From contig VIIQ02000641.1 of assembly GCA_007449985.2 (NCBI GenBank), positions 124,001 through 188,000 of the forward strand: a stretch of DNA of 64,000 nt, in the 5' to 3' direction. This document shows positions 12,473 through 34,721 of this stretch, one piece after another. The DNA is from Desmodesmus armatus. Lineage: Eukaryota; Chlorophyta; Chlorophyceae; Sphaeropleales; Scenedesmaceae. The position numbers and the translations under genes are program-made. The notes under the pieces are model-generated. The model worked only from the letters and a program-made list of their open reading frames with translations, was not told the DNA's origin and did no database searches. The stretch's first letter is position 1. Each line of letters opens with the position of its first letter.

Positions 12473-12499
12473 ACCCACCCAACCCACCCCTTCTTCATT

Positions 12500-14440
12500 G
12501 CGGCAGCATCACCTTGAGTGAGTGAAATCACCTTGGGTGAGTGAAATGTGGATCTGACTGTTACTTGTTGTGTTGGGTGGTTTCAGCAGATTGTGGATGA
12601 TATAGAGGAGGGTGCCAGTGCAGACCTGCATTCTGGCCAGGCAATCACCACATGTTGTGCATGACATGCAGTGACCTGTTCCAGAAATGTGGGGTGTAAC
12701 ACGTACAGCTACTTGTGAAGGTTGCTCTCTGGTGCGTCCATTGTGTTGCATGGGCGCCTGCCAGTGCACTGTTGTAGGCTTGGCCATAGCATGCCAGTGC
12801 TCCCAGTGAAAATGAGATGTCAGGTCTTGTGCATACAGTCATTTACATCATGCTGCCTATCAGCTGGCTGTGGGGATACGTGTACGTGTCCAAAGTGTCT
12901 CCATCTTCTGCTTGCTGTCAGCTGCTGCTTCTGCTTGCTGTCTTTCACATGTCAGCATGCGGACTCATCAGAACCTCCTGGTAGCTGGCTATCTCTGCAG
13001 CCTTGGCCACAAAAGCTTACACTGCTCCTGATGATTCCATGTAGTACTTCTACTGCAGGAATCATGGTGCCAGCCTGTTGCATGAGGTCCATGAGCATCT
13101 GTGGCAGTGATGTGTTGCTGGGATGGGCTGGATTCAGCTCCGGAGCTGCCGCAGTGGTGTAGTCTGTGGTGTGGATGAGTCTGAAGGCTGGCTATCATCT
13201 GTGCCAGGCTGAGGGTTGACCTCCTCCTCTTCATCTTCACCCCCGCCTGCACCTGAGTGTTTGCCATCCTCTGAGTCTGAGTAAAAAGATAAAGATAAAG
13301 ATACAGAGACACCCCCTTGGTCTCTTAACGCCATAGGACTGCGTCCCATTGGCCTCGCGTCCGTTGAGGACGGCTCTTCAACCAACACGCCTGGGGGTCT
13401 AGGGCAATGGCACTCGTGGCCACATCTCACTCCCCAGGGGCACACCTGGGGGCCGTGTAAACCCACCGAAATTCGGGCTGGAGATGTTGTTTGACATGGG
13501 AGATTGGATGCTGTAAGGTATCACCCTTGACCCACTGGGAGAGCCCCCTCAGTCCCGACCTGAGGGAACCTTGAATCCCTAGGGTAGCACACCCAATAGC
13601 GGGCTCCATGCCTTTTCCGGCTGTATTCTGCACCCATTCCTTCCTTTGCCTCTGTGGCAGTAATCAGCATCAGGGGATCCCTCTCCCTTCACTGCACTTG
13701 CCCGGGTCAGCAGCCTGGCTCGGGGTATTATCACCCCCCCTAGGGATTACGTATTAGGAGTACGTCACAAGGTCTGGCACATGAAACCATGGGAAGCCTG
13801 GGAAGCAGCGCTCATCAACAGTGACATTACGGCTGCTGACCACCTCTCCATCATCATCCATCAGGATGCGCCAGCCCTTGCCGTTGACTGCGTCGTACAG
13901 CTCAGCTGTGGGGCCCACGGTGTCTGTGTCGTCCCCTTCACTGGCGGTGCTCTGTTGAGGAGTTGGCTGCCATGTGTGCGGGTGAGACCTGGTTCTCTGT
14001 GACCATGTCCCATCTGATCAGCCTTGTCAAGCTGTCAGTCCCCACGTGGCCCAAACGGCTGTGGCACAGTTCTGCAGTCTGCTTGGTCTTGATCTTCATG
14101 GCTGCTGTTGTGCTGGCGATGTCGCTGCTGCTCCTGCTGTTTCTGCCGTACTGTTGGGACACACTGGGTACTAGTCTTCCAGGGCATACAGCCCGCCTGA
14201 TGTGTGAGGCGCGTAGGCAGTGAAGCCGTTGTCCCCTGACATCTTACAGCGCCCCTTGGAAAAGGTCAAATGTGCTGCCTGGGAGGCCACTACCCTCCCA
14301 AATGAGATCAGGTTCACACCTCGTGATAGGGTGCATACAGCACCTCCTTGAGGGACATGGTGTCACCTGAATGCCTGGAGTGATGCCATCATAGTATGAT
14401 AATCCGTAGGTTTTTTTAGACACACTCATCAGCATGTTGT
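12500..14440 (-). pseudogene. Decayed Ty1/copia retrotransposon remnant
   Basis: Minus-strand fragments of copia Pol are recognisable. CTRPDISFSLGALA (about 12.80-12.84 kb) matches the end of the reverse transcriptase. A segment at 13.18-13.25 kb is almost the same as 42.34-42.42 kb in the second copia copy. LCHSRLGHVGTDSL (about 14.0-14.1 kb) is the GAG-pre-integrase HxxLGH-type motif. Upstream of it, 14.24-14.44 kb holds the broken retropepsin-to-pre-integrase region. The integrase and most of the reverse transcriptase are missing, and about 0.5 kb of unrelated sequence (13.28-13.77 kb) lies inside. No LTRs were identified. It cannot be autonomous. Confidence 0.75.
13277..13770 (-). other. 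Possible SINE-like insertion with (TATCTT)n tail
   Basis: This block separates two parts of the copia remnant. Read on the minus strand it ends in repeated tatctt units (plus strand aaagataaagataaagata at 13,281-13,299), a short simple-sequence tail typical of non-autonomous retroposons. I found no clear pol III A and B boxes and no target-site duplication, so the identity is only suggested. Confidence 0.3.
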
Positions 14441-15589
14441 CGCTTGAGAGGTCCCACCCCCTGAGTGTAGTATCATATGGTGGAATATCATAATGGCATT
14501 CTGGGGGCTGACAGGTCTGTGGTGATCTTTGGCCGCCTGATCAGACCAGGTTCAGCATTCAGTGGAAATTTCTATGCTGGCGCACCGGCAACTGTGTCAT
14601 GAGGTACACACAACAAGCAACAATGCAATCACGCCCCACCCAGGCCTCAGCACCCGTTTTTTTACCAGTGCTGCTGCCAGAGCAGCCTGCACTCTCTGCT
14701 GTCCCTCAAGACTGTAAGGCACCCTCACTCAAGGTCCCAGACCCTCTCGTCCCGTTGTTGATCACTCATGAGTGGCAGGCTGGCACTATCGTGATGGTGA
14801 CAGGTGTGGTCTTCCGACAAGCTGCTACTATGCTAGCGAATCCGGCAATGCATGCCAGTTCAACTGTGTGAGTGTGTGCGTGCCAATGGCACCCACACAC
14901 TCACAAAAGGTCAAATTGGCTGTACATGGTCTAAATGTTGGTGGTGGATTTCAGCCTTGTGCCTCGTTCGTGTGGTCAGCTTTTTCCTTCGCTGCTGTGA
15001 TCAATTTCACATATAGACATCTGTACACCTGGGCTTGCAAGCACGGCCCCTACGCAGTTGTAACTCTCTTTGTCGCGGCCGCAATACCTCAGCTGTACGA
15101 CAGTACAAAACATCACACATGCTGCTGATGAATTGCAAATTAAGGTCGGACATACGCTTTTTCTGGGGTGTTTTGTGGAAGCAATGTACTTGCAGCCCAA
15201 GGGAGTGCAGGTCCGTAACAGGCCATTAAACGGTTGAAAGGTATGTACAGTACACCTGTACGTGGCTGTTAGGGTACTGGGCGCCTCGGAGGCCTACTGC
15301 CTACTGCCTCTGACCTGGCTCGAGGCAAGACAGTACCGACAGTCCACAACGACTTTTGTTTGGGACAAGCACAGCCTCGAAAATGCGTGCTAGTATGCTT
15401 TTCGTATATACAAGAAATCACCTAAACACTTCTCAGGGTCAATGCATGCAGTGTTTGCGGAATGCATTCAAGTGATGTTTGATTCAACCAGCAGTACTGT
15501 TGTCATGGGTCAGAGCGTTGAGGAGTGGGCAGTAAACACAACGTGCGAAGGTTTATTGATGAAATCTGGATGAAAGACTTTGCATTTAG
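14441..15589. other. No recognised gene
   Basis: Short ORFs only, with no conserved motif. The stretch from about 15.23 to 15.54 kb is non-coding sequence before the first proposed exon of the large plus-strand locus. Confidence 0.4.
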
Positions 15590-15795
15590 TGGAGTGCGCG
15601 GCCACTGTAGGTGCTTTGCCCTGCCCCAAAACAGCACTGGGGGCCTCTCTTCATCAGCTAGTAGAGGAAAATCTGACAGAGGAATTGTCTTGGTTTTACG
15701 ACAAACCACCCGTCACGCCGTTTCCTCCGTCGCAGGCCCTACATGAAGACTCGGTGCGTTCCACTTTTATCTCATCTACCAACGTCCTGTCGAAG
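15590..15795 (+). CDS. Candidate upstream exon of the large recombinase/helicase locus
   Basis: An open segment runs from an acceptor-like tttag (ending 15,589) to the donor aag|gtgggc, in phase 0 at its 3' end. It has protein-like composition, including LHQLVEENLTEELSWFYDKP and STNVLSK. A second candidate exon follows at about 15,993-16,072 with a perfect gtaagt donor. I recognise no domain. Assignment to the locus that continues at 16,939 is inferred from strand, spacing and style of splice sites. These could instead belong to a separate upstream gene. Confidence 0.4.
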
Positions 15796-16938
15796 GTGGG
15801 CTGCGATTATGAGCACTAGTGCTGTGGTGTCAGATCTGCTGGTGATGTGCTCTGCTTGATGTGTGGGGGTAGGACACAGTGTCTGTGATGTTTTGTCTTG
15901 GCATTTGCGTGCAATCTCTGTTGCACACTTTCTGACAGCTCTCCGTCATGGCCTTGCCGTGCTGTGCTGCTCCCTCCCGTTGTGCTGTACAGGGACTGCC
16001 CGTGACTACTGGTAATCATCGACCTGCTCAAAACCGACAAGTGTCCGACGCCGCTGTGGAATTGTGCTGCCTGTAAGTTGGTGCCCAGCGGTCCCGAGGG
16101 GTGATCAACTGGTGGGGCGACAGCAGCTGCAATTCACGCATTACGACACGTGACACGTGATACTGTTGGCTGCTGAATTTGTCGATTTCCCGTGCCTTCC
16201 GCACCTTGTGGCTGTCGTGAGGTCACACATCGCATGTAGCAGGATAGGCAGGTGGCTATGTGCACCCAACTTCATACTGGCTTTTCATGGCAGCTGCAAA
16301 GTGCGTGTTGTTGCTACACCTTGGTGTTTCCGGCACGTGTTATGTGTGGTGATCTCACTCTGTCCTAACCGACATCCAGCTGCAGCGTGGCTTCGCCATC
16401 AGTGCCCTGCTGATTACCTTTAGTTGTCATGGCACGTGATTAATTAACTCAATTGTGTTCACGATGCAGTCAGAGTGCGGTCTACGCTCTACTTGGTGCT
16501 GCTGCCAGTGCTGCCTGTTGAGTGCTGGCTTGTTCTGTGCATGGTCTGTGTGGCTTCGTTGGCATGCTGATCGACCTTGTGAGCTTACGTGTGGTCACCT
16601 GGGCATGTTGCTTGTCCACCAAGCTTGTGCTCCCGTCCCCCCCCCCCCCGCCCACCTTGGGGTGCACTAACGGTGCTGCCTTGTGTGTTGATCTGTGCCT
16701 GCTGATTCTGCTGCTGCACACACAAAAGTCTGCTTGCGTGTCATGATCCGTTTTGCTGCTGTACCTACCCAATTCTACTTGTGCAGCCTTGGTGCTGCTG
16801 TTGCAACAGCAATGGCTTGCAACCGCTTGACTGACGCTGTGCTCTATGTTGTCACCCCCCTCCCCTGCCTACAATGGGGTGCTGCTGTGGCCCGAAAATA
16901 CTTTGCTGACCCTGTACCCTTGTTGTCTGCCTCCCCAG

Positions 16939-19900
16939 CGCACCATGGGGTGCAGGAGGGTTGGCAGTGCTGGCTTGTACCGGCGGCGTTCGTGCTGGGA
17001 CGGGAACCTCGGCAGGCGCCCTGCCGACCTGCCGCGTGACTGCCCTGCTGCGTTGAACCTGCCACCGGGCTCAGAGCTGCCTGTCGTGTTCATCATGCTC
17101 CTGGTGATGTCAATGATGACAGCTCCATGGGCTGTGTGGCGCCTGCCTTTTGTGAAGGTGAGGCATGGGTGACTGTGTGCTGTTGCATGTGCACGAGTGC
17201 ACTGTCCTGCTCGGTGCATTTCCAGACAGCTACTCAGCATCACCAACTATGGCACAGCGAGGTCAAGACCTGGTGCTCATCACCTCACATGCGGTCGTGT
17301 TCTTGCATGTGGCTCTGCATGTGGGCGCGCTGGACCCTCTGACCACTGTGTGCCTGTTCTTTCTTGTGTGCAGGCAGCACCTGTGGTGGAGGCCCCTCGT
17401 TGGTCTCTGGTGAGTTCTTGGGTGGTGGTGCTGTTGAGGACTGCATAGTCTGGGCTGCTGATGTAGGCATGCATGACATGTTCCTATGGTGATCTGTGCC
17501 ATGCAGGTGGCCGTGGGCGAGTGGATGGCGGCACGTGGCGCGGTCAGGGCATCGCCCACTGATTATGTCGCGTGCCAGGTGGGGCGTCACGGGCTGTCTT
17601 ATGGGCCGGCAGCATGCATGGTGTTGCTGATCAGCTAGCCTGCGATATGGACATGCCTCCATCATGCTGTCCTTGACTGGGTGCGGGCCTCCCTTGACTG
17701 GGTGCGGGCCTCTCAATAGCAGGTGTGTGGGACCTTTGGCTGCATTTCTTTGCTGTCCTCAAGCTGCTTGGTGTTGCGCTGTCCCAATGTCTGCAGGGCC
17801 TGTGCACGACGACGATCGTTCAACCCCCTCCCTGCCTACCAGATGCCTGGGACTGGTTATCAGATGCGGGGGAGCGCCATCACCACACCAACCCGTACAT
17901 GGTCTGCCCCGCCCACCAGGTGGGTCCCTGCCGTGGCCCTTGGGCCTTGCTGCTCTGATGGTGCCTGTACGTGCCAGAGGGATGTCGCGGAGTTGCATTG
18001 GGGGCCATCATACCATGCATACCTGTGAACATGACGTGCAAGTGGTCTGTCACGTGCTGACAGTGTGCGGTGCTGTGCTGGACTGGCACAGGATTGTATG
18101 TTTCCTGCATGTATAGCGTGATGATGTGCCTTGATGCAGTTTGTAGGCTGTGATGGCCTCAATTAAGAGTTCCTGCTTACTTTACAATCATGCATTCATT
18201 CCTGTGCTGTATAGTTGTGTTATGCTGTGCAGGGGCTGCGCCTCACCACCCCTCCTCGCCTGGCCGTGTGTTTACAGCACGTGTACAAGGATGACACCTC
18301 ATACATGCGCAACACCTCCCAGGTTTGTCTTTCTTTACCAGTGCTGTGCCAGGTCGTGCTGTGTAGGATCTTGTTTGCCCCTTTCATACCAGTGTATGGT
18401 ATGTCCCTTTGCTCTTCCTTGTGGCATGCTGCCTGGCAGGAGGGTGGAGGTTGCAGGGCGGCAAAAATTATGCACTAGTGAGAACAGTCGTCACGGTGAG
18501 GATGAATTGTGCACTGCTGAGCACAGTTGCTGCTTGTGTCTCTGCTGTGTTCGTTTGCATGCATGCTGTACCCAAGGGCCTGTGTGTTGCTGTTTGCTGC
18601 TGTACAGGGGATGGCTGTGGTGTCACCCTCTCCCCGGCCCAAGTCATGTGAGGCAAGCGACAACATGACATCGGTGTACAATGCTGGCAAGGTGCGATGT
18701 TGATGTACGACACTGTGGGTGTGCTGAATGATGCTCCTGCTGTTGGGGTGCTGCTGCAGGGGGGTTCAGCCCTGAGGATGCAGGGTGGCATGACGGCGTC
18801 GATGTTGCTAGGCCTGCCCTCCTCCTGCCCTCCTGTGCCGACCATCGAGTGTGTTGTGGCTGGCTGCGGGCATGTTATTTGGGTCTAGAGACGTGTAGCT
18901 TGTGCTTTCCCCTCACATGTTCTGAATCGGATGGGTGCATGCTGTCCGTCCTGTAGGTGCCTGCTTTGCAAACCATGCTCTGGCGTGTACAAGAACGGGT
19001 GGTGCAGATGCTGCTGCACAGTTTCCAGGTGCGTTTGGTCGTCGACGCAGGGCGTGCATCGGCGGCGTGATTGTGGTCCAGCACAGGCTGGGACTTCATG
19101 GGGACTGGTCAAGGGAAGGACTGGAGGGGGTGGGGGTCGTGGGGGCGGGGGATAGCGGGGCAGGTGGTGGGGGAAGGGGTTGCTGTTGCATCGGGGCCAG
19201 GTGGGGCCTTCGCGGTGGAGATGAGGCGGAGGTGGAGGGGAGCTGTGGACTTGAGGGGTGATGCAGCGGTGGCGGTGGTGAAGGGGGGAGGGTGCCACCG
19301 ATGAGCAGCCAGGTGGCTGCTGTGGTGGTGGTGGAGAGGGGAGGGGAGGGGAGGGGGGGGGGTGCTGCTGATGAGCGGCCAGGTGGTGCCGCGGTCGCGG
19401 TGGTGCCGCCCTTGAGCGGCCAAGAGGTGCTGCCGAAGATGTTGTGGAGGGTGATGCGCCCCTGTTTTCCCTTGTCAGGCCTCCACTGTTCTGTCGAATC
19501 CTTGTGCCCGTGGCGGCCCTTGTCTTCTTGCGTCTTTCCCTTCCTTCCCTTTGGGCCTTGCTGCTGCTGATCCCTTTTGCGCCATTATCTCTGCCTGCCC
19601 CTAAGCCTTTGCCATGCCCCTCACGTTGACAACCAAACTCACCTGCGTGGCGTGCTTGCGCTGCGCAGGTCTCCCATACTGGGGCCAAGTGGATGGCGTC
19701 CCTGAGATCGTCTACGCTGGCCTTTGCCCCTGGTCGTGCGGTGTTGGCCATGGTGAGTGGATGTGTCTGGTGTCCCCCTGCACTGCCTCTTGCTGCGATG
19801 CACATCATGTTGTGTGTCTACCTGTTTACCTTGCGCTCGATGGCTGCTCCTGCCTGGCTCTGAGCCTGCCACATGGCGGTGATATAAGCCCCTTGACTGA

Positions 19901-21091
19901 CCCCACTGACGTGTCTGTGCTGCGTTGTTTTACTTTGTTAAATATGATTGTGAAGGCTCTATAAGTTATGTCTGTGCTGCTAACCAATCCCCTGACCTGT
20001 GTGTTGATCTGCAGGGAGATGCTGTCGACAACGAGCTTCCGCACCTGCCGAGCGATGCTGGTGACTTGGTGGCACTGAACTCTACTGAGGTGCGCAGCTC
20101 TGCAGCTCTGCAGCACATTTCGCTCCAGAATGCCACATTTGGGTATGCGTGTTTGTCCCGTCAGCAGCCTGCAAGCGTTGTTTGCAAGGAGGCGGTGGGG
20201 AAGGGGGGGGGGGGCTGATACAGCTCTGTGTCAGCCTGCATGCATCTGACAACGATGTCTACTTGTCTGCCTGTGTCCTGTGCTAAGGATGTCTGTGTGT
20301 GGCGGCAGCAACCTGTCAGCGACAACACGCCCGAGCACCCAGCGGGGAGCGCAGCAAGACCCAAGGTGGGTGTGTGACCCGGCTTTGAACAATCATCGTT
20401 GCATGCTCGCTGTGTGGTGATGTAGATGCGTCACTCCTCTGGCTGCCTCCACCTAGTGTGGGCGCGCTGGACCCTCTGACAAGCCCTGTCGTTGCCTGGC
20501 GTGTCAATTGTGCTGTGACTGCTAGTATGTTGGCGGGTGCTGATGTGCAGCCGGGTTGTGCTGTGCATATGCAGGCGGCTGCCTACCGCGTACTACTGTC
20601 GTCAACTGGGACCTTCAACCTGAGGAGACCTGCTGCGGCCGCAAGGTGGGTGTTTGTGTGTGCTGTCACAGCCGATGCATGCATGTGCGTGAACAAGCAT
20701 GTGTCCTACAATGTACAGTTACAGTCTCAATCGTCGGTCTCACCAGGGAGACATGCCGGAGTACGTTGGTGGCGTGCAGCAGGGCCTGTTGGGCGCAGCG
20801 TCCAGTTCTGCAGTGCTTTGTCTGTGTCCTTCAGGGGCGAAGCAAGGCTGTGTGCCCGTGACGCGGTACATGCCCAAATGTTTGTGAATGTGTTGGGCTG
20901 CTGACCATCGTGTTCATGTCTGCTGCTGATGCTGCGCGGTGCAGGGCTGAGTTGGAAGACTTCTGGCTGCTGATGGTGCTGGCCGCAATGTACAGATGCT
21001 GCCATTAGCCTCTCAGCACGGACTGGATTCATTACATCCCCTTCCAGCGTGCACGAGATGAGCCTGACATCCCCGACACGCCGCTGCTCTG
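16939..21091 (+). CDS. Multi-exon 5' part of the recombinase/helicase locus (unknown domain)
   Basis: Many AG...GT bounded segments are open, begin and end in phase 0 and are multiples of three: 16,939-17,157 (73 codons), 17,374-17,409 (12), 17,507-17,578 (24), 17,797-17,919 (41), 18,233-18,322 (30), 18,608-18,691 (28), 18,957-19,028 (24), 19,669-19,752 (28), 20,015-20,089 (25) and 20,288-20,365 (26). Less certain exons start at 18,760, near 20,575 and at 20,747. The final small exon, 21,048-21,091, ends with a split TG^G Trp codon that joins in frame to the large exon at 21,382. Most exons begin with a G or V codon after CAG. The first encodes a hydrophobic stretch (VVFIMLLVMSMM). No domain is recognised. 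Chance would not give ten phase-0 multiples of three, so I infer a real spliced transcript. Confidence 0.55.
19085..19420 (+). repeat. G-rich, GGT/GGGGA low-complexity intron
   Basis: About 300 bp of purine/G-rich sequence with gagggg and tggtggtgg runs lies between the proposed exons at 18,957-19,028 and 19,669-19,752. Long Pro-rich ORFs on the opposite strand are by-products of this composition. Confidence 0.6.
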
Positions 21092-21381
21092 GTGAGTGTG
21101 TTGCATGAACTGCAGCATGCTGGCGCACATGATCGCCTGGGTCAGCCGTGCTGCTTGCATTCCTCGTGCGGCACCTGGCTGGATGTCAGCGGTCATGTAG
21201 GCAGCGTGCATGTCGTGTACTGCTGCGAGCATGGCACATGTCTGCTGGGTGCACAGGACTGCGGCAGGCACACATGCTGTCTGCTATACCTCAGCATAGT
21301 CAGGGCTTTGAAGCCAGAGTTGCCAACAGCCAACCCCATATGCATAACTCACTTCCTGCTGTGCTGCATGTGTGCGTGTAG

Positions 21382-22367
21382 GTGTGGGCTGCCTGTTGGT
21401 GCCCATGACTCTTCCTGGAAACTGCGCCTCGTGCGCGCCCTGGAGGTTTGCGTGTTTGGCCAGGCGACTGCCCCCGTCCAGCTGCCGGCATTCATCCCTC
21501 CCGTGACCCCTGCCAAGGAACTCAGGAAGGTGCGGCAAGGCAGCGTGAACCTCATCAAGCGCAGGGGGAAGCGCTTCGCCTGTGCTTGCACGGCCTACCA
21601 GCAGGCCACGAAGGCACGCCTAGAGCCGTATGCTGGCGGTGGTTGCAGTGGTCGTGCTTTTGTCGTGGCCCCAAATGGATGCGCTTATGCATTCCATGAG
21701 GTGCATGGTGGTGTCCTGTGCAGTCCGTATCAGCGGCTGTGTCAGCTTGTGGTGTGCTGTTTGTCGGGCAGCTGCTTGGGTGGCCAGCGGTACTCTGTGT
21801 GGCTCCGGCTGAAGCTGTTGTTGGGCGGCGATGTCGAGGTCAACCCTGGCCCTGTTGCTGCCATGGACATTATGTCGGTCACCACCCGTTTGGCCACCTG
21901 GCTGCATGACAATGGTGGTAACTGTCAGGTTCGCTCCTACTGTCTGGGCCTGGTGTCTGCAAATGCAGTGTGTGGGCAGCAGGCTGGGCTACGTGCTGGG
22001 AATGTGCCTGATTGGCTGGTGCTGCGCTGCAGTAATGCTGTGGGCTCGTGGGTCAGGCTCGTAGCGTCACATTGTGCCCAGGGGACCCTACTGCGGCCTG
22101 CGGCATGGGCGCCTCCTTGTTCTGCAGCCGTTTTTGATCCTGATGCAAGGTTTTGGGATGATGTGCTGATTGGCATGCTGCCCCCGGGCCGCACTTCCCT
22201 TGCTATGTGTGATATCACGCTGCAGCGTGCCCAGGCCGTGCTGGCACTGCTGGCGATGCTGGGAAATTACTGTCTGCCTGACTGTGTCCGCGCATCGGCT
22301 CTGCTGCACGCTGCCTACCCGAGGTTTGTGCAGGCTGTGTTGGAAGCCTCGGCTGCTGGTAGCCCCC
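21382..22367 (+). CDS. Polyprotein segment A: unknown domain ending in 2A, then start of segment B
   Basis: The large exon opens after acceptor gtgtag at 21,381. The first TGT codon is at 21,383 and reading frame 2 stays open to 22,411. About 156 residues precede the first 2A motif. They include a basic stretch (KELRKVRQGSVNLIKRRGKR) and a Cys-rich part, with no recognised family. After the 2A motif the frame encodes about 170 residues, with a helical part around LQRAQAVLALLAML. At the C5 run 22,363-22,367 the reading must move to frame 1, because frame 2 stops at 22,409-22,411 while frame 1 opens just after a stop at 22,360-22,362. The change equals one missing C. The function of both parts is unknown; they are joined to a recombinase and helicase downstream. 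Confidence 0.6.
21812..21853 (+). other. 2A-type ribosome-skipping motif 1
   Basis: The frame reads KLLLGGDVEVNPGP, an exact match to the 2A core D(V/I)ExNPG|P with the usual Leu-rich lead. Gly is encoded at 21,848-21,850 and the final Pro at 21,851-21,853. In the 2A family the ribosome fails to form the Gly-Pro bond, giving two polypeptides from one ORF. Whether it works here is inferred from the motif. Confidence 0.85.
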
Positions 22368-23300
22368 GCGGCGCCGTGTTGTCTGCAACAGAAGTGGGGC
22401 GAAGCGGCTGAGGCAGTGTGGTGGTGAAGTGCCGTTTGCTGGTGATCCTGCTGCCGTGGCTGCTGAGGTGCGGCAGCTGGGGTGTGCTGCTGCCAATGAG
22501 CGTGCCATGTCCTCGGGTCGTCGTGGCAGTGAGTCCAGTGTTGATGCAGTCGTGTCCTCCCTGACCGAAGATCTGTCCCTTGCGGCCTGCAGGGCTGCGG
22601 GTTTGTCTGTTGCTCAGCAGGAGGCAGTGTGGGCAGCTAGCGGCGCAGTTCGGCCGCATTGTGTTCTTCTGCAGCCTGGTCCTGTTGGTGAGCAGGAGGC
22701 GTTGTGGGCTGCCAGCCTTGCCATGCGGCCGGACTGTGGTCCTGTGCAGCGTGTCCCGGTGGACCCTCCGGTCTTGCAGGCCATACAGCTGGCTGGTGAC
22801 TGGGTGAGGCAACTGTTGTTGATGGACGGGGATGTCGAGGCCAACCCTGGGCCTGTGAGCAGCCCAGTGCCTTCTGTAGGTTGTACTTGGGATGGTGTCG
22901 GCAGCATGCATGCTGGTGAATCTGTTGGGGACGAGGTGATGGGTGAGTCGCTGCTGGACTGCTCGGGCAGCGAGGGTTCGCCTGACATGTCCTTGGATGG
23001 CTTTTTGGAGGGGCTGCTGGAAAGTGACCTTGATCTGTCTGTGTGTGAAGACTTGGGCATGTCTGGTTTGGAGGGAGCAGCCATAGGAGGAGGTTGCCCT
23101 GGCAGCAGTGGTGGTGGGGACTGCATGTTGCAGCAGCTGCAGCAGCAGCAGCAGCAGCCTGTTTTGTTGTGGCCTGAGGCTGCGGGTGGTGGTGTTGGCT
23201 CTCACATGGGTGTGTGCCTGCCTGATAGTGCTGTGGATGCCTCACGTGGGGGCGCACTGGGCATGGGGGTGCTGCAGGGTGTGCTGCCACCTGCCCCCCC
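22363..23300 (+). CDS. Polyprotein segment B: middle protein ending in second 2A, then Ser/Gly/Gln linker
   Basis: Frame 1 carries about 155 residues up to the second 2A motif at 22,831-22,854. They contain two partly similar repeats around QQEAVWAASGAVRPHC and EQEALWAASLAMRPDC. After the 2A the protein is acidic and Ser/Gly-rich, then has a poly-Gln run near 23,135-23,160. Frame 1 ends in TGA at 23,362-23,364. The downstream recombinase is in frame 2, and the switch can be placed at the C7 run 23,294-23,300. No enzyme domain is seen; the piece between the two 2A sites would be a separate protein of about 333 residues. Confidence 0.55.
22813..22854 (+). other. 2A-type ribosome-skipping motif 2
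   Basis: The frame reads QLLLMDGDVEANPGP. It keeps every invariant 2A core residue and the LLL lead. The expected break is between Gly 22,849-22,851 and Pro 22,852-22,854. It lies about 1.0 kb after the first motif and in a different raw reading frame, so both sites survive on either side of a frame change. Confidence 0.85.
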
Positions 23301-24931
23301 TATCTGTGAGTGTGGCAAATGCTGCGCAGCCATCACAGCATATGCAACAGGTGCGCCTGTTTGACTTGCATGGGCAGCTGCCTTTGCCTTCTCGTGATGC
23401 CCGGTGTATGTTGCCGCCGCCAGTGCTGGTGGCCTCGCAGCCCCAGCGTCCCCTGCTGCATCAGGACTGTGTGTATCCTGCAGGTGTGGGGTTGGCGGCA
23501 GCAGGTGCTGGGGTTGCAGCGGTCGCAACCTCTGTTCCTGTCGTGAGTGGCATGGCTGGTGGCGTGCAGGCGCCCTGCATGGCCAGTGGGTGGCGTGGAG
23601 CCGACGCTGGTCAGTTGGCTATGATGTGTGGCATGTCTGGCGTGCAGCCACGTTGTATGGCGGGTGGTGAGCATGCAGCTGGTGCTGGTCAGTTTGCTGG
23701 TTTGCCAATCCCGCCTACTTCGTGTGCCCCTGGTCCCTTAGTCGGTTCTGCTTCTCATGCGTCTGTTGGCTTGGGTGTGCCCCAGGCGCTGTGGCATGCA
23801 CCGTCGCAGGTGCATCACGTGTCGACCCATCCTGGCATGGGGGTGTGTCCTGCTGGTGTAGCTGCATCTGCTCAACCTGGGCCGCCCTTGTTGGCACAAC
23901 AATTGCACCATAGTGCCCAGCAGCAGGTGCCGGCAGCGCTTGGCTTGGCGCTTCCTGCTGCTGCAGGTCGTGCTGGCAGCGGCAGTCAGCCTGCGAGCAG
24001 CAGCGCTAGCAACACAGCTTCTGTTGTGGAGGAGCTGATGGAATCCTTCAATGGGTACGACATGATTTCTTCGTGTGTCAGGGGCAAGTGGGTTCTGCCA
24101 GCTCATGTGCAGGCGTTGCATCAGGCTGACATACAGGCCTGTTTGGAAGGCCTGCAGCAGCAGTCCCGTACTCTGAATGCCACCAACAACAAGCGCAAGA
24201 GCAGAGCGCAGGTGGACCAGAGGCCCAACCCTTGCACATTGTCCCGGTACTTAACAGCGCTGCACATTTGGGTTGGGTTTGTCTATTCCATCAACATGCA
24301 GTGTTACTGGCTGGGTGCGGGTGATTGGCACGTTCCCTCTATGGAGGTTGTGGCGTCCAATGATGGGACGTTTATGTTTCATCTGTATAGGTACATAGCC
24401 AGTGGGCGGTATGCAGGATCTGATTTTGAGGCATTCATAGACACCTGTTGCACGGCTGCCAACCACATTATTTCGATCATGGCATACGTGGGCAAGTGGT
24501 CGCGTGCTGAGCACAAACGCGTCATGCAGGCGGCAGTGATCGGCCGGCAGAGGCTGCTGCAGGAGGCCCCTCATTTGAACGTTATTAGGAACGCCAAGGA
24601 TGCCATCAGCTGGCAGTACGTTGATCTCATGTTGCGGGCTTTTGACAGGTGGCCCCATGTGGGGCATGTGTTCAGGGCCAATAGGTTCAAGCCCGTTTTG
24701 GGCAAGGCTGTTGCGGTAAGCCTTGAGTACTCCGGTCTGCGCCCCATGAGCCTCTTGCGCTGTGGGTCGGACTGTCGAGACGAGCGGTTTGGCGACAACT
24801 GTCCCTTCAAGTTGGGCCAGCTGACGCTGTACTGGCCGCAAACTGGCGGGGTTGATGATCTCGTGATTCATGGCAAGGTCGTGCGCACGAAAATAATCGC
24901 GATCTGTTTCGGCGGGAAGACACCATGGGGG
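23294..24931 (+). CDS. Tyrosine recombinase, N-terminal and first catalytic half
   Basis: Frame 2 starts with a Gly/Ala/Pro/Gln-rich region of about 230 residues. A helical core-binding-like region follows (about 24.0-24.3 kb, with ADIQACLEGLQQQ and TLSRYLTALHIWVGFVY), then the catalytic core. SGLRPMSLLR at about 24,731-24,760 gives the first catalytic Arg (codon 24,740-24,742), and GKVVRTK near 24,880 is a candidate for the active-site Lys. The frame breaks at the G5 run 24,927-24,931, between the first Arg and the second catalytic box; the rest continues in frame 1. Family knowledge: tyrosine recombinases cut and join DNA through a covalent 3'-phosphotyrosine; in eukaryotic elements they occur in Cryptons, DIRS-like elements and related transposons. 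Confidence 0.7.
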
Positions 24932-27433
24932 TGGCTGTGGACCAGGTTGTGGGGCATGTCTGGCTTGCACCTGATGCGGACAATGTGGACCGCAGCCCCT
25001 CACACGCCATGCTTGTGTACCTGCTGGCGCGTGGGGCGTGGCCGGGGTTTTTCTACAAGGGTGCAGATGGGCGATACCAGTTTGTGTGGAGCCCACCCCG
25101 GACGGAGCAGGATTGGCAGCGCACTGTGCAGTCTGTGTTGCTGGCGCGTCCTAAGCATGCATGGAGTGGTGTGAGGGAGTCTCCTGTTTTTGTGGGTGTC
25201 CCACCTGGGCCAGATGAGCACTTGTTTGCAGGCAACTCGGTGCCGTGGCTGGACGAGTCTGCTGCGTGTACTCTCATCAAGTCAGCGGGTGCTGCTTTGG
25301 GCATGAACGGGAAGCTGTTGGCCCCGTATTCCTTTAGGAAGAGCATGGCCACAGCTGCTGTGAATACCCCGGAGCCAGATACTATGAAGATCCTGGCGAC
25401 GACGTTGAAGCACATGGATTTGAATACGACGTTAAACCATTACGTCGATTTCACATATCCAAAGGATTCTTTCTCTGTGGTGCATCGGGAGGAGTCCCGC
25501 AAGGACCTGCCTGGCCCGTCTGGCAGGCTTCAACATAGGATCACCCACGGGGCTGGTGGGCTGATTGGCGCTGTAGTGCAGGTCGCTGGGTGTGATCCGG
25601 TGCTAGAGCGGGAGAGCTTGGCCAGTCATTTGACTCACATGTCAGGGGCCCCCACTCGACGGCCCTCTGAAGCCGTTCGGCGGCGGCGGGCACACATTCT
25701 GACACACACGGCGGACGCCCTGTACAGGGAGGACGCTGCTGCCCTTGATGTGCTGGACCCCTGTGCTTCTGAGGTGCAGCGCCCTCGCGAGGACGACGGC
25801 TGGGCGCAGCAGCTGCAGGGCACACCTGTAGGGCCTTATGTAGAGGCGCTTGTTCTGGGGGTGTTTGGGTTCGATGCTGGTAGGCGGCGGCTTGGCTTGC
25901 CTGTTTGTGCTGTGTCTGAGGGGCCGTGTGTGGCTAGGGTGCACAAGGTCGTGCACCGTCTGTCTCCTGACACCTGCTGGGAGGTGTATGTGTGTTCTGG
26001 GTGTGGGACCACCTTCCCAAAATGCGCTGCTGCCAAGCAGCATGTCAAGAACTGTCAGGGGGCAGGTGCTGACGAGGGTGGTGAGGGGTCCTGGGAGATC
26101 AAGCAACGGCGGGGGATGTTCGGCTTTTGGCAGCAGCCGCATATTGAGGCCATAGTGCAGTGCTGGGTGGTGCTGCGACTGTGGCAGGAGCCTGAGCTGG
26201 ATTTTGCATGGCTGTATCGCTGCCACGGTGCTCGCCTGCATGCGGCCGTGGCTAATGCTGTCTGCGCTTGTCCCACTGTGTTGACACGGGCAGACGTGTG
26301 CTGTGCAGTTCACATGCTGCACGGCAACTACTTCCATGTGGTGCATGGCGCACCCCCACACCTGGGTACTGCTCCCAAAGGGATGGCTGTGTTCAAGTCA
26401 GGGTTGACCCCGACGCCGATGCTGCCTGGTGAGGTGTTTCCTACAGGTTGTGGTGGGCTGGGTGGGCCATTCAGGCAGTGTCCTGACGCAGCTGGTACCT
26501 CGGGGGGTGGGGGAGGGGTCGCCAATCAGCCTGGTTCTGGGGGAAGCCCTTCTGGGGCTGGGCAGGCAGGTGGGAGTGCTGACCCTATGCGTGTGTACAT
26601 GCGTGGCCTGCCATGGAACCCTGATAACGTTCCAGGTGCTGCCGCAGCACGGCCGGGTGGCGGTCCTGCAGCCAGCGCGCGCAGGCTGTTGCTGCTTCGT
26701 GTGGCCGTGGGGCATCCCAGCGCTTCATTGCAGAGTCATTTAAGAGCCCTGCCTGGTGCTTCTGCGCAGGAAGTGCATGTTGTTGACCTTGTTGGCAGCA
26801 GGCTGGCCGTCGCTGCGGCTATGGGTGATGACAGTGACAGCTCAGCTGTGTTGCTGGATGCGATGGATGCAGGCTCCATTCTGCCCATAGCGTTGCAAGA
26901 CACCATGCATGGAGTATCTGTGGGTCCCAATGCCATGATAGTGGTGCTTGACTGGGGGCTGTCTGCTGGCGAGGTCGACTCAGTGGGGAGGCACTTCGGG
27001 GTGCTCCCCCAGCATCGGCATGTGGCTGATCTGCCTGTGCTGCCAGTCTCGTACATGGTCTGCCAAGGCATGTCCCCGTGCTGTTCTTTGACGGCCGTGC
27101 AGGCCTGGGTTGCTGCACGTTGCAGCATCTCTGGTCTGCCGGCTAACTGTGGCAGTGATCAGCAGGTCGCCCTTTATGTGCAGGCTGCAGGCAGGTTTCT
27201 GCAGGACTGGGCTGGTGGGGCTGGGGTGGGCAGGTGGGCAGCTGATGATGGGGCTCGTGTGGCTGCTTTTGTTGGCATGCAACTGGCGCCTGCTGCCGTG
27301 CTGGCCGCTCAGAAGGCAGTCGGCATGCACCTGCTGGGGTTGACGGCTGAACAGTTGGGCATGCTGGCTGCCATGTGGAACATGAAGCCTGGTGAGGGGA
27401 AGTGGTTGCATGCCAGTGGGATCATTGGCGGGG
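24927..27433 (+). CDS. Tyrosine recombinase second half, C2HC zinc finger and unknown region
   Basis: Frame 1 continues the recombinase. YSFRKSMATAA at 25,327-25,359 corresponds to the HxxR box with Tyr in place of His (Arg codon 25,336-25,338). LKHMDLNTTLNHY supplies the probable nucleophile Tyr at 25,441-25,443. A C2HC-type finger follows at 25,990-26,055: CSGC, then HVKNC. A region of about 450 residues of unknown function, with a Gly/Ser-rich linker near 26,500-26,600, leads to the helicase. The frame ends inside the helicase Walker A motif: it reads SGIIGG and then runs out of register at the G4 run 27,430-27,433. Recombinase, zinc finger and helicase in one chain suggest that a single element protein binds, unwinds and joins DNA. 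Confidence 0.7.
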
Positions 27434-29219
27434 CAAGACCACCTCCTATGAGGCGTTCATGGCCATGGCTCACACCGTGCCTGGCTGGTCTGTAGTGGCG
27501 ACTGCACAGACCAATGCGGGCACGCTTGCTGTCAATGGGGACAAGTGTCTGGAGGCTTTGCTGGAGATCTCGTACATTCGAGATCGTCTGGTGTACTTCT
27601 TGTCTGATAAGGAGGGACATGAGTTTACTGATCCCATCACTTTGTCTCACGTGATCATGTATTTGTGCAATCCTGATGTGCGTGCCAAGTTGGATGAGAA
27701 GCTGGCTCCCTTGACGCACCTCATCATTGACGAGGTGTCTCAGGTGAACAAGCAGTTGATGACACTTGTCATTATCGTGGTCATGCTGGTGAAGCCTCAG
27801 CTGAATGTTGTGATTGGCGGTGATGCTCGGCAGATCCCATGTCCGCCTGAGTATCGGGGTTCGCCACATGCTTTTTTCTTCGAGAGTGCGCTGTGGGACC
27901 TGTTGGGTGTGAGGTTTTGTGAGGTCACTCAGTACTTGAGGGACCCTGCGATCGCTCCCATTGTGCAGGCCCTGGCTGATGGGCAGAACACGCCTGTTGT
28001 GTACCATCACCTGCTCCCGCGGTTCGAGGATGAGCCTGGTGTTGTGGTGCCTCTGGGAGCCACTAGGCTTTACGTGTTTGCGAAGAACAGAGATCGGAAT
28101 GACTGGAATGCGCAGGCATTTGCGTCTGGCATGCTGGCTGCTGGGAGCCCACCCACTCGCATCCCTTGGTTTGTGGGGACCCCGCCCAACCACCGCCGTG
28201 ACAAAGTGTATCTCAAGGCGTTCTATCACACGCTGGAAATGATTGAATGCTCTGTGCTCCGCAACTGTGGGTTGGAACCTGGTACGGAGGGGTTCCACTG
28301 CAACCCTTGGTTGGATGCTTTTCAGGGTATGCGGGTGATTTTCTCTCATTCCTGCGAGTGCTTTCAGCATGTGCAGCACGCACCTGGCAGCACTGTCACG
28401 AGCGGCCCTCGCGTGCAGGTGGGGAAGGGGCAGCTGGGCGAGGTTGTGGGGTTTGAGGAGGTGCCCTCTGTTGAGTTTCATAAGTGGCTGGCGTCGAATG
28501 TGCAGCCTGGGGCTGTGGGGTGGGGGTGCAGTTATGGGATGCATTCGGGGAGGCTCGTATGTGACAGTCACAACGGGCGCAGCGATGCACACGGTGCTGC
28601 TGGTGAGGCAGGCGCTGCTGAGGCTGCTGCTGTGTTCTGGCCGGTGGTCACCTTCCGCGACAAGCATGGCAAAGTAGCACGTGTGTTTGTGCCGCACATC
28701 ACTGTTCGTGAGAGCCGCTGGCGTGGCGTGGCTAAGGCCACCGCTGCTGTTGCTTTTGTGCCCCTGCACTATGGCTATCATAGCCATTGACTGGCAGTCA
28801 ATTGCCAGCAGATGCAGGGCATGACCATCAAGGATCGTCTGCTGTACCTTGTGGCAGACATCACGTCTGGGTACTGGCTGCAGGGGCTGGCAGCAGTCAT
28901 GGTCACCAGGACCACTGAGCTGGCGCGGTTGATTTTCAAGGTCCCTGTTTACATCTGGGCACGGAAGAAGCGGAACTGGTTTTTGGTGTACCCACCTGTG
29001 CTTGCATGGTTGCGAAAGTGCCGGCAGTCCGGCTTTGCATCGGGGCATGGTGCAGTTGTGCAGGATGTCGATTGGAGCTCACGCGGGCAGCGTGTGTGGG
29101 CCAAGGTTGTGGAACTGCAGCACTGCACACTGGATGAGTTGGGGGGGTCGCAAGCAAAGCTGCAGGAATTGGAGGCTGACTTCCATGCAGCAGGTGGCGT
29201 CAAGGCTGTGGGGTGCTAA
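27430..29219 (+). CDS. Pif1-like SF1 helicase domain, broken by one TGA
   Basis: Frame 3 carries the helicase: motif I ends GKTTSYEAF (just after 27,433), motif II is LIIDEVSQV (about 27,718-27,744), motif III is VVIGGDARQIPCPPE (about 27,810-27,850), and there is an LRDP box near 27,940. The C-terminal motifs QQMQGMTI and AVMVTRTTELARLIF lie at about 28.8-28.95 kb, after an in-frame TGA at 28,788-28,790. Open sequence runs to TAA 29,217-29,219. The DEVSQ and GDxxQ signatures place it with Pif1-type 5'-3' DNA helicases. A one-base addition in the G4 run would rebuild the GxxxxGKT Walker A exactly. As sequenced, no full helicase can be made without recoding. The ancestral codon at the TGA may have been CGA (Arg). 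Confidence 0.8.
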
Positions 29220-32200
29220 GCATGCAGGATGCAGGTGTTCAAAGGGTGTGTGGGTGTGCTTAAGAATGCACAGGACTGGGGGTGTGGTTTGGGTGTGTTG
29301 TGCTGTTGCAATGGCACACATGGAGGAGGCGCATGCTTGTTTGTGAAAGACACTGAGCTGGCGCAATTTTGCAGGATGTTGGCTGCAACACTCGCAGGTC
29401 GTGTGCCACACTGTTTCCCCGCCAAGAGGTTGCAGGATTATGCAGGCTTTCGCAGGTTGCATATCTTGAGCGGCTGTGTGCTTGTTCATGCATGACTAAT
29501 GTCTGTAACTGAGTGTTCGTGTGGTGCGCGTTGATTTTGGTGTGTAGTTGGCCACTGTTGATGTGGGTGTACAGTGTGCAACTGCTGTCTTGCCGCACAG
29601 CGCGTTACTGTTGTGTTGCTTCAGGTGTACAGTGGGTTACTGCTGTGGCCGCTGTCTTTATTATGCACAGTGCGTTACTGTTCCGTTGCTTTGGGTGCAT
29701 AGTGGGTGTTGCTGTGGGTGTACAGTGTGTTACTGCTGTTTGATGCACAGTGTGTCACTGTTGTGTTGGGTCAGGTGCACTGCTGTAAGTGATGTCTTGA
29801 TGCACAGTGGGTCACTGCTGTGTTGATGTTGTTGTTGGTGTTCAGTGTGTGACTGCGTTGCAGTTGCACTTACGCAGGTAACTGGGCAATATTCTGCAAT
29901 CTGGACTGGGTCGGGGCCGGCCATGGCAGCTGGCCAAACTAGTTGAAGCATGCCCAACTGCTTCTGCATGTGGCACCACACACAGGCTGGAAGGCTTGCA
30001 GTGCAGCAAGTGCCTATAGCTATGGGAGTGGCAGAGTTTTCAGGGGAAGCTCAACGTCAGTGAAAACCCAACGTACAGCATGCTTGATGAACAGTAGACT
30101 GCTGGTCTATGGGAATGCCAAGTTGCACCAGGGGCTGGGTGGGGCTGAATTGATCTGAAATGGGTACAGGGTAGGGTGGAGTTGCTGTGGCAGGATTGGG
30201 CTTCTGAGATCTGACGAGATGCCTGACAGAGATGCCTGACAGAGACCCTCATAGAAATGCCAGACATTGACATTGACATTGACATTGACAGCCCAAACCG
30301 GCCAGGCGGGTCAGCCCAAACCCAGGCGAAAACTTTCTACGCCCACCAGACACCCCCCTTCCCCCTGCATTCTGGCATTCCACCCACTCCAGGCCAACCC
30401 ACACACTCCTGGTCCTATATCAGTTATTTTGGAAAAATCAGTCACCCTCAATAAGAGTCCACCAGTCACTAGCAGCTCGCCTTCAGTGTGAGCACAATGT
30501 TGCTGCGGATGTACCAGCAAGAGGAGCCCAGGCAGAAACCCTACTACTGCCACCATCACCATAAGCCCTACACATTTCCCTGATACCCCAGCCTGGTGGT
30601 TTCTTTGATGGGGCTGAAGTGCACGTTTGTGGGGTAGTGTAGGGTTCCACGGTCCACAGCCGTCCACGCCCAGGCCCATCGAAGGATGCAAAGCTGGGGT
30701 GGGCACGTCTTAGGGTTTTGGTGTCTGGAATAGGGTTTCTGGATTGGCAGAGCCCCTACGGACAGTTTATAACTTTGGGGGGGGGGGTTGCAGGGGGCAG
30801 GTACTAGGGTTGAGATTTATTTGTAAGCACGACACGGCATACCAGACAACAGAAAACATGGTTTGCAAGAACTTGCTCAATGTAGAATGCCAGGGTGGCA
30901 GGATGGGGACTTGGGGAAATTCAGATAAGTAAAGCTGGAGTGACCTGGACAGGGTGGAATGGGATTGAGTGCGTAGATTGCCAGAATGGCAGGCTGGGAT
31001 ACTTAACCCTTTAAGGGCGGGCTCACTGAGCCCGGCGGGTATTTTTGGCCCCAAGACCCCTTGGATGCGAAATGCAATGACTTTGGCCACACTGGGCCAG
31101 TTGGAGTCAAACCTGGACCAGGGGTCAACATGACGATGCTGCTGCGCGCAAAACATGCTGATGCGCGCTGGCCGTTCTCAGGCGTGGTCAGCTCATAATA
31201 AAGCTTCAATGTCAACCCAAAGGTTGACCAGTCAAAGGGTCCAAGTGGTTGGTGTATTGCGTCTCCCTGGCGACATCCCGCACCCGCAGCAAGGCTCAAG
31301 AAGATGCATACATATGTCAGTCGTCCCGATAAAGCGTGCAAAGGCCTCAATCCCATATATACTGCTGCTCTCACGAGCCAGGTTGACCAGTGGGAAAGAA
31401 AGGTCAAATCGGTGACAGCAGCGACCACGATACAAGCTGTGTATGTTTCAGATACACTTTTATACTTATTGCGTATGCCCCCCGTGTTGGTTTCCAGCAC
31501 ACGTTGCACCACTGCTGATGTACATCTCGACGTCAATAAGTGATTGCGCATGGATACGTGCGCGCACGATCAAAAGCGCATGTAATACTGTAATGAAACA
31601 TCTTGGGCACTCACAATCTGTGCTCTGATTGTCCAAAAACCAAGTAGGCGCAAATATATAGTCTTGCAAACCTTTGTGCCAAAAAATGGGCCTCCCGCAA
31701 GGATTGCTGACATTCTGGTAACACTCAGAGCAAAATATCGGGGTATTGTCACTTTCTCGATCAGTGAGCCTCTCAGTTACCGTACCACACAGGCAGTCGT
31801 GGGTGTCAAGCACTCTACATGTGTACAGGCACACCACTCTGTGGTCATGATCATTTGTGAAGCTGCAGGCAACGCAACGTAAAGCACCACAAGGAGTGTG
31901 TGCATTCATGCAGACCCTGTACAATGGTGCAATCAGATAGTTTCTTGTCAGACATTGCCTGGCACGTTCTGAACTGTTCCCGGCCTTGTGTGGTGTCTGT
32001 CTGCTGCTGTATCGTGGCGCTTGTCATGCATGTGCACAACGTCTTCCTATTGCTGGCTTGGCAACAGTGAGTGAGTCCAAACGTTGTGATCGCTGCGGGC
32101 TTGCAGTCACTGAGTCTATTGAGTGAGTCCACTGAGTCTATTGCTGGCTTGGCAACAGTGAGTGAGTCCAAACGTTGTGATCGCTGCGAGTCACTGACTG

Positions 32201-32829: not shown

Positions 32830-33800
32830 ACTATACCGGGTACCGTATACCGGGTGTACGGTATAACAGTTGAAATGTACATTCAGAACAACATACATAC
32901 TTTTATTGTATATTGGCCTTTACAACGGCCATCAGGCATCGGGACAAGGACGGATCCGCTGCAAGGCACCTGACTTACAAGGCATATATGGCAAGATCGG
33001 CCAAAAAACTTCCGCTATGTTTCGGGTTATATGGCTTCAATGTATGCCTTGTTTTTAGGGTGAACCCGGTACACCCTGTCTCTGTGGGGGGGGGGGGGTG
33101 AGCAAGGGACGGAATAAGTTTGGAAGCAGCTCAGGGTCTGGTAGCAACCGAGGTCTGGACTGCTCTGGCAAAGTCTGCAGGGAAACTTTGGAGCACTTGC
33201 CGTGAAATCCAGGATCCGTATTCAGGGCCCCTGGGGGGTGACCCGTGACACTGTGTTACATTTTCGTGTGGAGCGTTTTGCAAAGTTTACATAAATGCAA
33301 AAAAACGGGGCGTACCGGGTTCAGTAAAACGCTAGCCTCGGCCTGATTCTAACAACTATGTTGTCGTGCGCTCAGTGGCCCCCCTACGGGCGAACTGCTT
33401 CCCTGCCGTTCTAGGCTGTTTTCGCAAACGACCTGCCCTCTTCCGGTAAAGCTTGGCCTCTTGTTCCGTTTTCGCCTTCGGGCGATTCGAGAACCCCTTG
33501 GACAGTGGAGAGTTGGGACGCGCAGTGTGCCTCGCAAAGGCAGCTGGTCATATGCATAACACGAAGAGAGGGCCGGCCACGCCCCTCACACAGCACCATG
33601 CACACAAGCAAAGCTTCTTCAAGCCCCCGGGCCTCGGTTTCGAGACTGTGCGCTCAGGCAGTGTTATATTCGTTGGCCTCAGCATTTGCTGTTGTCATCC
33701 TGCTTGTGACCGTCAGCCATTCCAACTCTCTCTACACCTCAGCTAGTTCCATCAGCTTTGGTGGCAGGAAGGGCTCTTTCAACGGGGCCACAAGCAACTC
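32830..33800 (+). repeat. Leader repeat, copy 1 (upstream region plus 5' coding end of STELLO gene)
   Basis: Inverted homologue of about 51,490-50,470. It covers a transposon-like segment (catcgggacaaggacggatccgct, ending agggtgaacccggtac), about 0.5 kb upstream of the ATG, and the first 69 codons. Both copies share accgggttcagtaaaacgct, ttcgcaaacgacctgccct and gagagggccggccacgcc. Differences are scattered substitutions and poly-G length. Confidence 0.85.
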
Positions 33801-34721
33801 TGGTGTGTCTGGCAGACTGTTTTCAGGCACCAAGCAGCGCACATACCCTGGCCCCATGCTGTTTCAGGCAGCCGATGCCGTCACAGTGGCTGAGCCAGAC
33901 ACTGGCAGCCAAGGACCAGCACGCAGAAAGTGGGCTGTGTGCACTACTATCTTCAGGCCCTCTGACGCCATTCTGAGGGTGGCTGCATTGCAGGACTGGC
34001 AGTTGGTGGTGGTTGGTGATGAAGGCGGGGCGCCGTTTGCAGTGAACGCTTCTAACACAGTCTTCCTGGATGTGAAAGCCCAGCAGAAGTTGGCAAGCAG
34101 CAAATACGGTGGACTCCTGAGCCTGCTGCCTTGGAAGCACTTTGGACGCAAGAACGTAGGGTACCTGTATGCCATTATGAATGGTGCAGATACAATCTGG
34201 GATTTTGATGACGACAATGTGCTCAAAAAAGCAGTCCAACCTGCTGTGCCTATTAGCAATGTGCAACATGTCAGTGTTGATGCGGCTGCGTGCAAGGCGT
34301 TCAATCCTTACCCCCAGATGGGTGGCCCGTCTGCATCATCACTGCCAGGCTCGGCCCCCTCATGGCCCCGAGGCTTTCCCCTACAGCTGATTAGGCAGCC
34401 CTGCAATGCATCCTTGCAGCCAGGCGACACCAATAAAGTGGCTGTAATGCAGTCCCTGGCTGACAATGATCCAGACGTTGACGGCATTTTCAGGCTGACC
34501 CGTGGAGTGCCCTTCAGCTTTCAAGATGGCAAGCGCGCCACGCTTGTCATCCCACATGGAACATTGACACCATGGAATGCACAGGTGCGTAGGGGCCATG
34601 TGCTGGCCATAAGTTGCACACGCGTTTGCTGAGGGAGACGATGAAAGCAGAGAATGCTGCGTTGCAACCGGCATGTAAGCAGTGTGGTTGCTGCAGGATG
34701 ATATACATCAAGCACTGGCAC

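Follow-up and report, generated by a model that had tools for sequence, protein, structure and literature searches.

According to the excerpts of PMC12846837 used here, ribosome skipping at 2A (StopGo) sequences is frequent among RNA viruses but rarely found in cellular genes. Among mobile elements that carry a tyrosine recombinase, the closest described ones are the Crypton DNA transposons (excerpts of PMC3212892) and the large Starships of fungi (excerpts of PMC12506042). Here we describe a locus that combines 2A motifs with such a recombinase, in a 64,000-nucleotide stretch of the green alga Desmodesmus armatus (contig VIIQ02000641.1, positions 124,001–188,000, forward strand), called the window below. 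An original prediction, made from the letters of 21,382–29,219, had claimed that one transcript yields three proteins and that the locus may be an undescribed class of eukaryotic mobile element. Our analyses indicate that it is probably a low-copy tyrosine-recombinase DNA transposon of about 14.6 kb, with a 2A-punctuated polyprotein ending in a fusion of recombinase, zinc finger and helicase.

Domain order of the proposed 2A-bearing polyprotein

Three protein searches, which scored 7,993, 7,996 and 7,212 candidates, yielded five relatives in all (P0001–P0005), each from one or two contigs (sources jgi, lgn or ena), and a second copy of the element lies on contig C188 of the same genome. When P0001–P0004 were aligned along the window by tblastn, identities were 53–76% over pieces of at least 80 residues, and 23,041–23,968 was covered by none of these four; P0005 was aligned separately. 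The coding features are as follows.

21,382–21,850, plus strand: C-terminal portion of the first product, with the first 2A at its end (P0003 62% identical, aligned from 21,422)
21,830–21,853, plus strand: 2A core 1, DVEVNPGP (LKLLLGGDVEVNPGP), lead LKLLLGG; six-frame translation, kept in C188 and P0003
21,851–22,851, plus strand: middle protein of about 333 residues, with a frame change near 22,365 (P0003 and P0004 alignments; one frame in C188)
22,831–22,854, plus strand: 2A core 2, DVEANPGP (QLLLMDGDVEANPGP), lead QLLLMDG; six-frame translation, kept in C188, NPCP in P0004
22,852–23,968, plus strand: linker, N terminus of the third product, with a Gln run near 23,130 and a frame change near 23,300 (one frame in C188 to about 23,700)
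23,969–25,842, plus strand: tyrosine recombinase (P0002 63 and 76% identical over two pieces; phrog_216; distant-ORF alignment)
24,731–24,760, plus strand: R box of the recombinase
about 24,880–24,909, plus strand: RTK/NNRD region of the recombinase, with a frame change inside
25,324–25,359, plus strand: YSFR box of the recombinase
25,405–25,452, plus strand: H and Y box of the recombinase
25,993–26,055, plus strand: C2HC zinc finger (zf-C2H2 E=0.01, DUF7128 E=0.0013, both below cut-off)
26,068–29,219, plus strand: region behind the finger and SF1B helicase (P0001 62 and 68% identical over two pieces)
27,412–27,458, plus strand: Walker A of the helicase, split by a frame change
27,720–27,749, plus strand: DEVSQ of the helicase
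27,816–27,839, plus strand: GDARQIP of the helicase
28,779–28,793, plus strand: 15-nt insertion with an in-frame TGA, private to the window copy, absent from P0001 and C188
28,791–28,826, plus strand: helicase motif V
28,896–28,922, plus strand: helicase motif VI

The two D-V-E-x-N-P-G-P cores with leucine-rich leads that the original prediction had pointed out are indeed present, and six-frame translation of the whole window gave no other D-x-E-x-N-P-G-P match. No such match arose in 60 first-order Markov sequences of window length, in which NPGP appeared 0.85 times per sequence. Both sites have the D(V/I)ExNPGP core of 2A/StopGo peptides together with a suitable upstream lead, and both cores are retained in the two genomic copies (2/2), core 1 also in P0003, the sole relative that covers it.

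The relatives overlap along the polyprotein. P0003 contains the end of the first product, the first 2A in intact form and a large part of the middle protein; in P0004 the middle protein runs on to the second 2A site. P0002 (649 residues) covers the recombinase. P0001 (1,284 residues) runs in one frame from the recombinase YxxR box, across the finger, to the helicase end, and P0005, 53% identical to the P0001 helicase, spans the helicase and the part behind the finger. The order proposed for the single transcript (N-terminal product, 2A, middle protein, 2A, recombinase–finger–helicase) is thereby found again in C188 and in the overlapping pieces of the relatives, with conserved cores except at site 2 of P0004. 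One open frame in the window copy was not found: 21,382–29,219 consists of five overlapping open reading frames (ORFs) in different frames. The predicted middle protein likewise keeps its span of about 333 residues, as judged from C188 and the two relatives, and is interrupted in the window copy.

The recombinase carries the catalytic Arg, the box II Arg, the His-or-Trp position (here His) and the Tyr in order, and its piece at 24,889–25,842 matches the integrase family phrog_216 (E=5e-5). Weaker matches are those of P0002 to phrog_7685 (E=0.38) and of the window to DUF3435 (E=0.21). A genome search with P0002 returned the window locus, C188 and three distant ORFs (C53, C209 and C794) at 26–28% identity. 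The R, RTK, R, H and Y residues align with two of these three; in the third (L037) the last boxes are lost. The distant ORFs, of 508–572 residues (L035 4081–5751; L036 4191–5906; L037 4234–5757), have no Pfam family and no PHROGs integrase match, and showed neither a helicase (best E=0.65) nor an NPGP in the 10 kb around each.

The recombinase boxes (24,731–25,452), the finger and the helicase motifs (27,412–28,922) all lie on the strand of the 2A cores, as had been predicted. For the finger, the C2H2-type match is weak and the last position is a Cys; its cysteines and histidine are aligned in P0001. The helicase has motifs I, II, III, V and VI of the SF1B type, shared with the relatives in the alignment, and a curated profile match is provided by P0005 (AAA_30, 29.2 bits, Pfam cut-off 27). 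The helicase piece of the window (AAA_30, E=0.0028) and P0001 (PIF1, E=0.0055) remain below cut-off; P0001 also matched the Dda-like phrog_325 (E=0.005, no single stretch passing alone). The profile searches called for by the original prediction thus upheld the recombinase through phrog_216 and the helicase through P0005 only, with the finger and the window helicase below cut-off. No Pfam family above cut-off was found in the first and middle products, and Rfam gave nothing. Sequence searches of the PDB returned no recombinase or helicase; weak matches to a kinase (E=0.077), to CTCF fingers at the finger (E=0.053), to an uncharacterised protein (E=0.24) and to a designed protein (E=4.6) were set aside, and one further query matched nothing.

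A recombinase beside a helicase could also come from a virus integrated in the genome, for instance a virophage or Polinton-like virus that has both an integrase and a helicase. The size and this pair of enzymes would fit some such viruses. However, four scans of viral contigs found no relatives of two window proteins, P0001 or P0002 (by exact peptide words, which reach close relatives only), phage records gave only a chance match at E=10, and no capsid, packaging or polymerase family appeared in the ORFs scanned, which lie mostly outside 15.7–21.4 kb. Recombinase and helicase are moreover one protein in P0001. We consider a viral origin very unlikely.

Copies, left junction and selection

The following features define the extent of the element and its ends.

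15,692–30,263 (right edge up to about 30,289), plus strand: mobile element, extent shared with C188 (blastn to C188 and end alignments)
15,692–15,697, no strand: left junction GGTTTT, present both at the element end and in the target repeat (comparison with C268 and C584)
29,571–29,855, plus strand: eight ACAGTGNGTNACTG near-palindromes with 0–1 mismatch, clustered near the right end

The element is dispersed in the genome. Besides the window locus, a genome search with P0001 found C188 and, on C171, a piece of the helicase. Between window positions 15,692 and about 30,263, C188 is 96–98% identical, dropping to 85% over the last 700 bases; it is without window 18,092–21,621 (3.5 kb) and has about 870 bases inserted near 26,060. 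One C188 frame of 724 residues contains the helicase. Over the 28 kb of C188 compared, its flanks are unrelated to those of the window except for a LINE (long interspersed nuclear element) match and a short ACATTG array, which in the window lies at 30,267–30,288.

Queries for the genome search of the ends were a 2001-base left end, a 1021-base right end and two flanks (400 and 401 bases). On C268 and C584 lie repeats similar to the 400 bases left of the element. Their similarity to the window stops at 15,697, whereas the two repeats continue across the junction and remain 82% identical to each other. The window copy therefore interrupts a repeat that runs on elsewhere, and its left edge is fixed. 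On the right, the continuation of the repeat was not found. Terminal direct repeats of 5–6 bp are characteristic of Cryptons; of the two junctions here, the left one could be read, with the six shared bases GGTTTT. Strand skew was dropped as evidence for the left edge, because the edge moves with the penalty chosen (9,272, 11,750 or 15,751), and a short similarity between 16,870 and 29,628 was dropped as no longer match was found there. The near-palindrome cluster near the right end is a possible set of protein-binding sites.

Another possibility would be a chance arrangement, in which two element remnants adjoin each other or a host locus was duplicated. The window is rich in other repeats (satellite, LINE and copia gag, described below), and the stretch without relatives at 23,041–23,968 falls between the middle protein and the recombinase. 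However, the same order stands in C188 with different flanks, and the frames of the two copies overlap across this gap: in C188 one frame of 715 residues holds both 2A cores unchanged and the linker to about window 23,700, and the window frame 23,087–25,174 carries the reading on into the recombinase. The left edge, in addition, interrupts a repeat continuing elsewhere. We consider this explanation very unlikely, a duplication confined to this block being a slight possibility.

The protein has been under selection. Window and C188 were compared over 2,503 codons (21,623–29,218, without codons near frame changes), and changes at codon positions 1, 2 and 3 numbered 45, 34 and 85. There were 76 nonsynonymous codons (one a stop) and 75 synonymous ones, a ratio of 1.01 against 2.50 expected from random change of the window codons with 60% transitions assumed. 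This indicates that the reading frame, taken piecewise, was constrained while the copies diverged.

A tyrosine-recombinase retrotransposon of the DIRS/PAT/Ngaro kind would be an alternative source of the recombinase, with a reverse transcriptase unseen in the upstream 5.7 kb, or lost. Such elements carry this enzyme, PAT-like ones have been reported in green algae (excerpts of PMC8226300 and PMC3266345), and the upstream 5.7 kb are poorly resolved. However, tblastn with reverse transcriptases of the same genome (Ty3/gypsy with RNase H, and LINE) found nothing in 15,692–30,289 (best E=4.2); elsewhere, a second gypsy locus was recovered with the gypsy query (81%), whereas the LINE query recovered itself alone. 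No reverse transcriptase family was seen in the large ORFs lying at 21–29 kb, P0001, P0002 or P0005, no match longer than 18 nt links 29,220–30,100 with 8,601–21,400, and no long terminal or split repeat is among the 20 of 34 direct families and the 12 inverted pairs listed. This retrotransposon origin appears quite unlikely, and the DNA transposon remains our preferred explanation.

2A cores across the assembly

The window's own assembly (115.8 Mb, 831 contigs) was searched with the exact degenerate DNA pattern of the 2A core, which occurred 12 times, as against zero for a reversed-pattern control. Four of the 12 are in the two copies of the element, two on C190, one on C786, two on C131, two on C431 and one, unplaced, on C345. 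Those of C190 and C786 sit in Ty3/gypsy-type polyproteins that include reverse transcriptase, RNase H and integrase, and the frame of the two C131 cores is near-identical to the gypsy-type frame of C190 by eye. The two on C431 adjoin a weak aspartic-protease match (E=0.044), and this locus is probably another long terminal repeat element. At least seven of the 12 exact cores thus fall in mobile elements that were tested, suggesting either a spread of 2A between element types or repeated invention.

The gypsy-type cores (L034 4999, ORF 1417–9303; L031, ORF 2–5299, minus strand; L030) form tandem pairs on C190 and C131 and are single on C786. They lie ahead of the reverse transcriptase, on C786 behind a weak protease match, and their frames contain a possible DNA methyltransferase (by eye). 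On C431 (L033 4481–7150), a near-core ending in NPGS stands between the two exact ones.

The NPGP cores of the element might nevertheless leave the protein whole, giving one long polyprotein, or site 2 might be dispensable. P0004, the only relative covering site 2, reads NPCP there while keeping frame and lead, and position p18 of the 2A core is almost exclusively G in the excerpts of PMC12846837. The original prediction had named relatives without NPGP as its refutation; core 1 is intact in P0003, and site 2 in P0004 departs from it. On the other hand, the two genomic copies retain both cores and P0003 retains core 1, the leads resemble working viral types, and the 12 exact cores of the genome include, besides the four of the element, three in tested Ty3/gypsy-type polyproteins. 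A protein that is not split, or a dispensable site 2, is unlikely in our judgement, and we retain the reading of a polyprotein divided at two sites.

Reading frames, proposed movement and known systems

Several observations besides the NPCP of P0004 weigh against an element of the proposed kind. No intact copy was seen, and both copies carry lesions. In the window there are five, namely four single-base frame changes (near 22,365, 23,300, 24,890 and 27,430) and the 15-nt insertion; in C188 they comprise five single-base deletions, a TAG, the insertion of about 870 bases and the missing 3.5 kb, and a TGA is also listed in the recombinase match, where it may appear only past a frame change. No frame of any copy or relative was found to contain both the second 2A and the recombinase. 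At the right end, the other half of the target repeat was not found, and C188 and C171 are identical for 152 bases past the end of the block, including a small ACATTG array, so that these two may go back to a duplication and not to separate insertions. A 118-bp stretch spanning the left junction of C188 recurs in C758, C757 and C650, and a clean left end does not account for this. As for the proteins, phrog_216 matched the window piece only, no Pfam recombinase domain was recognised in either P0002 or the window, the AlphaFold models of the recombinase and of the helicase piece were unusable (mean predicted local distance difference test scores of 32.5 and 33.7), and Foldseek with the recombinase model found nothing at E≤0.001. 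The domain-library scan of 15.7–21.4 kb covered one minus-strand ORF only.

The stretches shared by C758, C757 and C650 (L046, L047 and L048, near 1438–1555) are near-identical over 3 kb, and the 118 bp consist of 63 bp of flank and the first 55 bp of the element, nothing more.

Neither introns nor programmed frameshifts were accepted as the cause of the frame changes in the window copy, since adjacent frames overlap and the reading in C188 goes on without interruption at these places. Three of the four were located by tblastn of the relatives. All three that were tested touch a homopolymer of at least 4 nt, against a background of 10.8% of positions with one no more than 2 nt away, so that sequencing error is possible; in C188 only one of five frame changes touches a homopolymer (by eye). 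The insertion at 28,779–28,793 repeats adjacent bases in reverse, again by eye. Since the lesions differ between the copies, each was broken independently or read with errors. The window copy is probably dead, unless its single-base changes are assembly errors. The single ancestral frame, which would have encoded the whole polyprotein, is a reconstruction from overlapping pieces of sequence, none of them containing both the second 2A and the recombinase in a single frame.

In our proposal, one message would give a polyprotein that the ribosome divides at the two 2A sites into three products: the N-terminal product, the middle protein and the large recombinase–finger–helicase. The recombinase would exchange strands at a short core common to element and target, a site-specific recombination that cuts and rejoins the element ends, and movement would probably proceed via a circle. 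The C2HC finger would help in DNA binding, and the helicase, within the same protein, would unwind the excised or nicked element, making copying possible. We infer skipping at both sites, circle formation, the role of the helicase and roles for the first two products from this arrangement.

The claim of an undescribed class is a more tentative one. The order of the domains, the selection on the protein, the dispersal of the element and the left junction of the window copy are shown. It is possible, at close to even but somewhat below, that it represents an undescribed class of eukaryotic DNA transposons, in which a recombinase covalently joined to a replicative-type helicase may be copied via a circle, two skipping sites set the supply of three proteins, and skipping is a device shared with unrelated mobile elements (Ty3/gypsy-type) of the lineage. 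No description of a recombinase–helicase fusion transposon, or of 2A in a tyrosine-recombinase transposon, was found in the literature searched, and the claim of novelty is limited to that literature. If true, a DNA transposon using 2A twice before a recombinase–helicase fusion widens the reach of 2A and the known modes of movement of recombinase transposons, and self-copying becomes testable.

The remainder of the window contains other repeats. A satellite array occupies 1–8,608 (353- and 386/387-bp units, 23 copies), and inverted repeat arms at 33,241–33,810 and 50,446–51,010 are 91–95% complementary and about 17 kb apart. A copia-type gag lies at 43,133–44,167 on the minus strand. A LINE-like stretch at 52,830–60,877, also on the minus strand, matches endonuclease and reverse transcriptase in pieces distributed among several ORFs, as would fit either decay or assembly errors throughout the window.

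Compared with the 2A/StopGo sequences of RNA viruses and APE-type LINEs (excerpts of PMC12846837), those of the element share the exact octapeptide core, a Leu-rich lead and the G before the core, but stand in a recombinase DNA element, with two sites per frame as seen in C188. They resemble the L-rich classes of that study in the Leu-rich lead, G at p11 and D at p12, whereas the residue before the p11 G is A, S or C there and G or D here. With SF1B helicases of the Pif1/RecD/Dda group the element has motifs I, II, III, V and VI in common, although its helicase is divergent and fused to a recombinase.

The Starships, as described in the excerpts of PMC12506042, are likewise large eukaryotic elements, and in their recombinase, as in that of the element, a Tyr replaces the Cre histidine (Y424 for H289 in Starships). 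DUF3435 is the sole Pfam family listed for window 24,889–25,842, at 10.9 bits against a cut-off of 25.8. Their recombinase is a separate first gene, whereas that of the element is part of the last product of a 2A polyprotein, fused to a helicase, with homology beginning about 8.3 kb inside the shared block. Cryptons, in the excerpts of PMC3212892, share with the element the tyrosine recombinase, the lack of a detected reverse transcriptase and of visible long terminal repeats, and perhaps the six-base sharing at the left junction. The word "helicase" has no occurrence in the main text of that paper. The Crypton tetrad R-H-R-Y, with HxxR in box II, is replaced here by YxxR (YSFR in the window, YSAR in P0002, YSCR in P0001). 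The element further differs from Cryptons by its fused C2HC finger and SF1B helicase, its two 2A sites and its size of about 14.6 kb.

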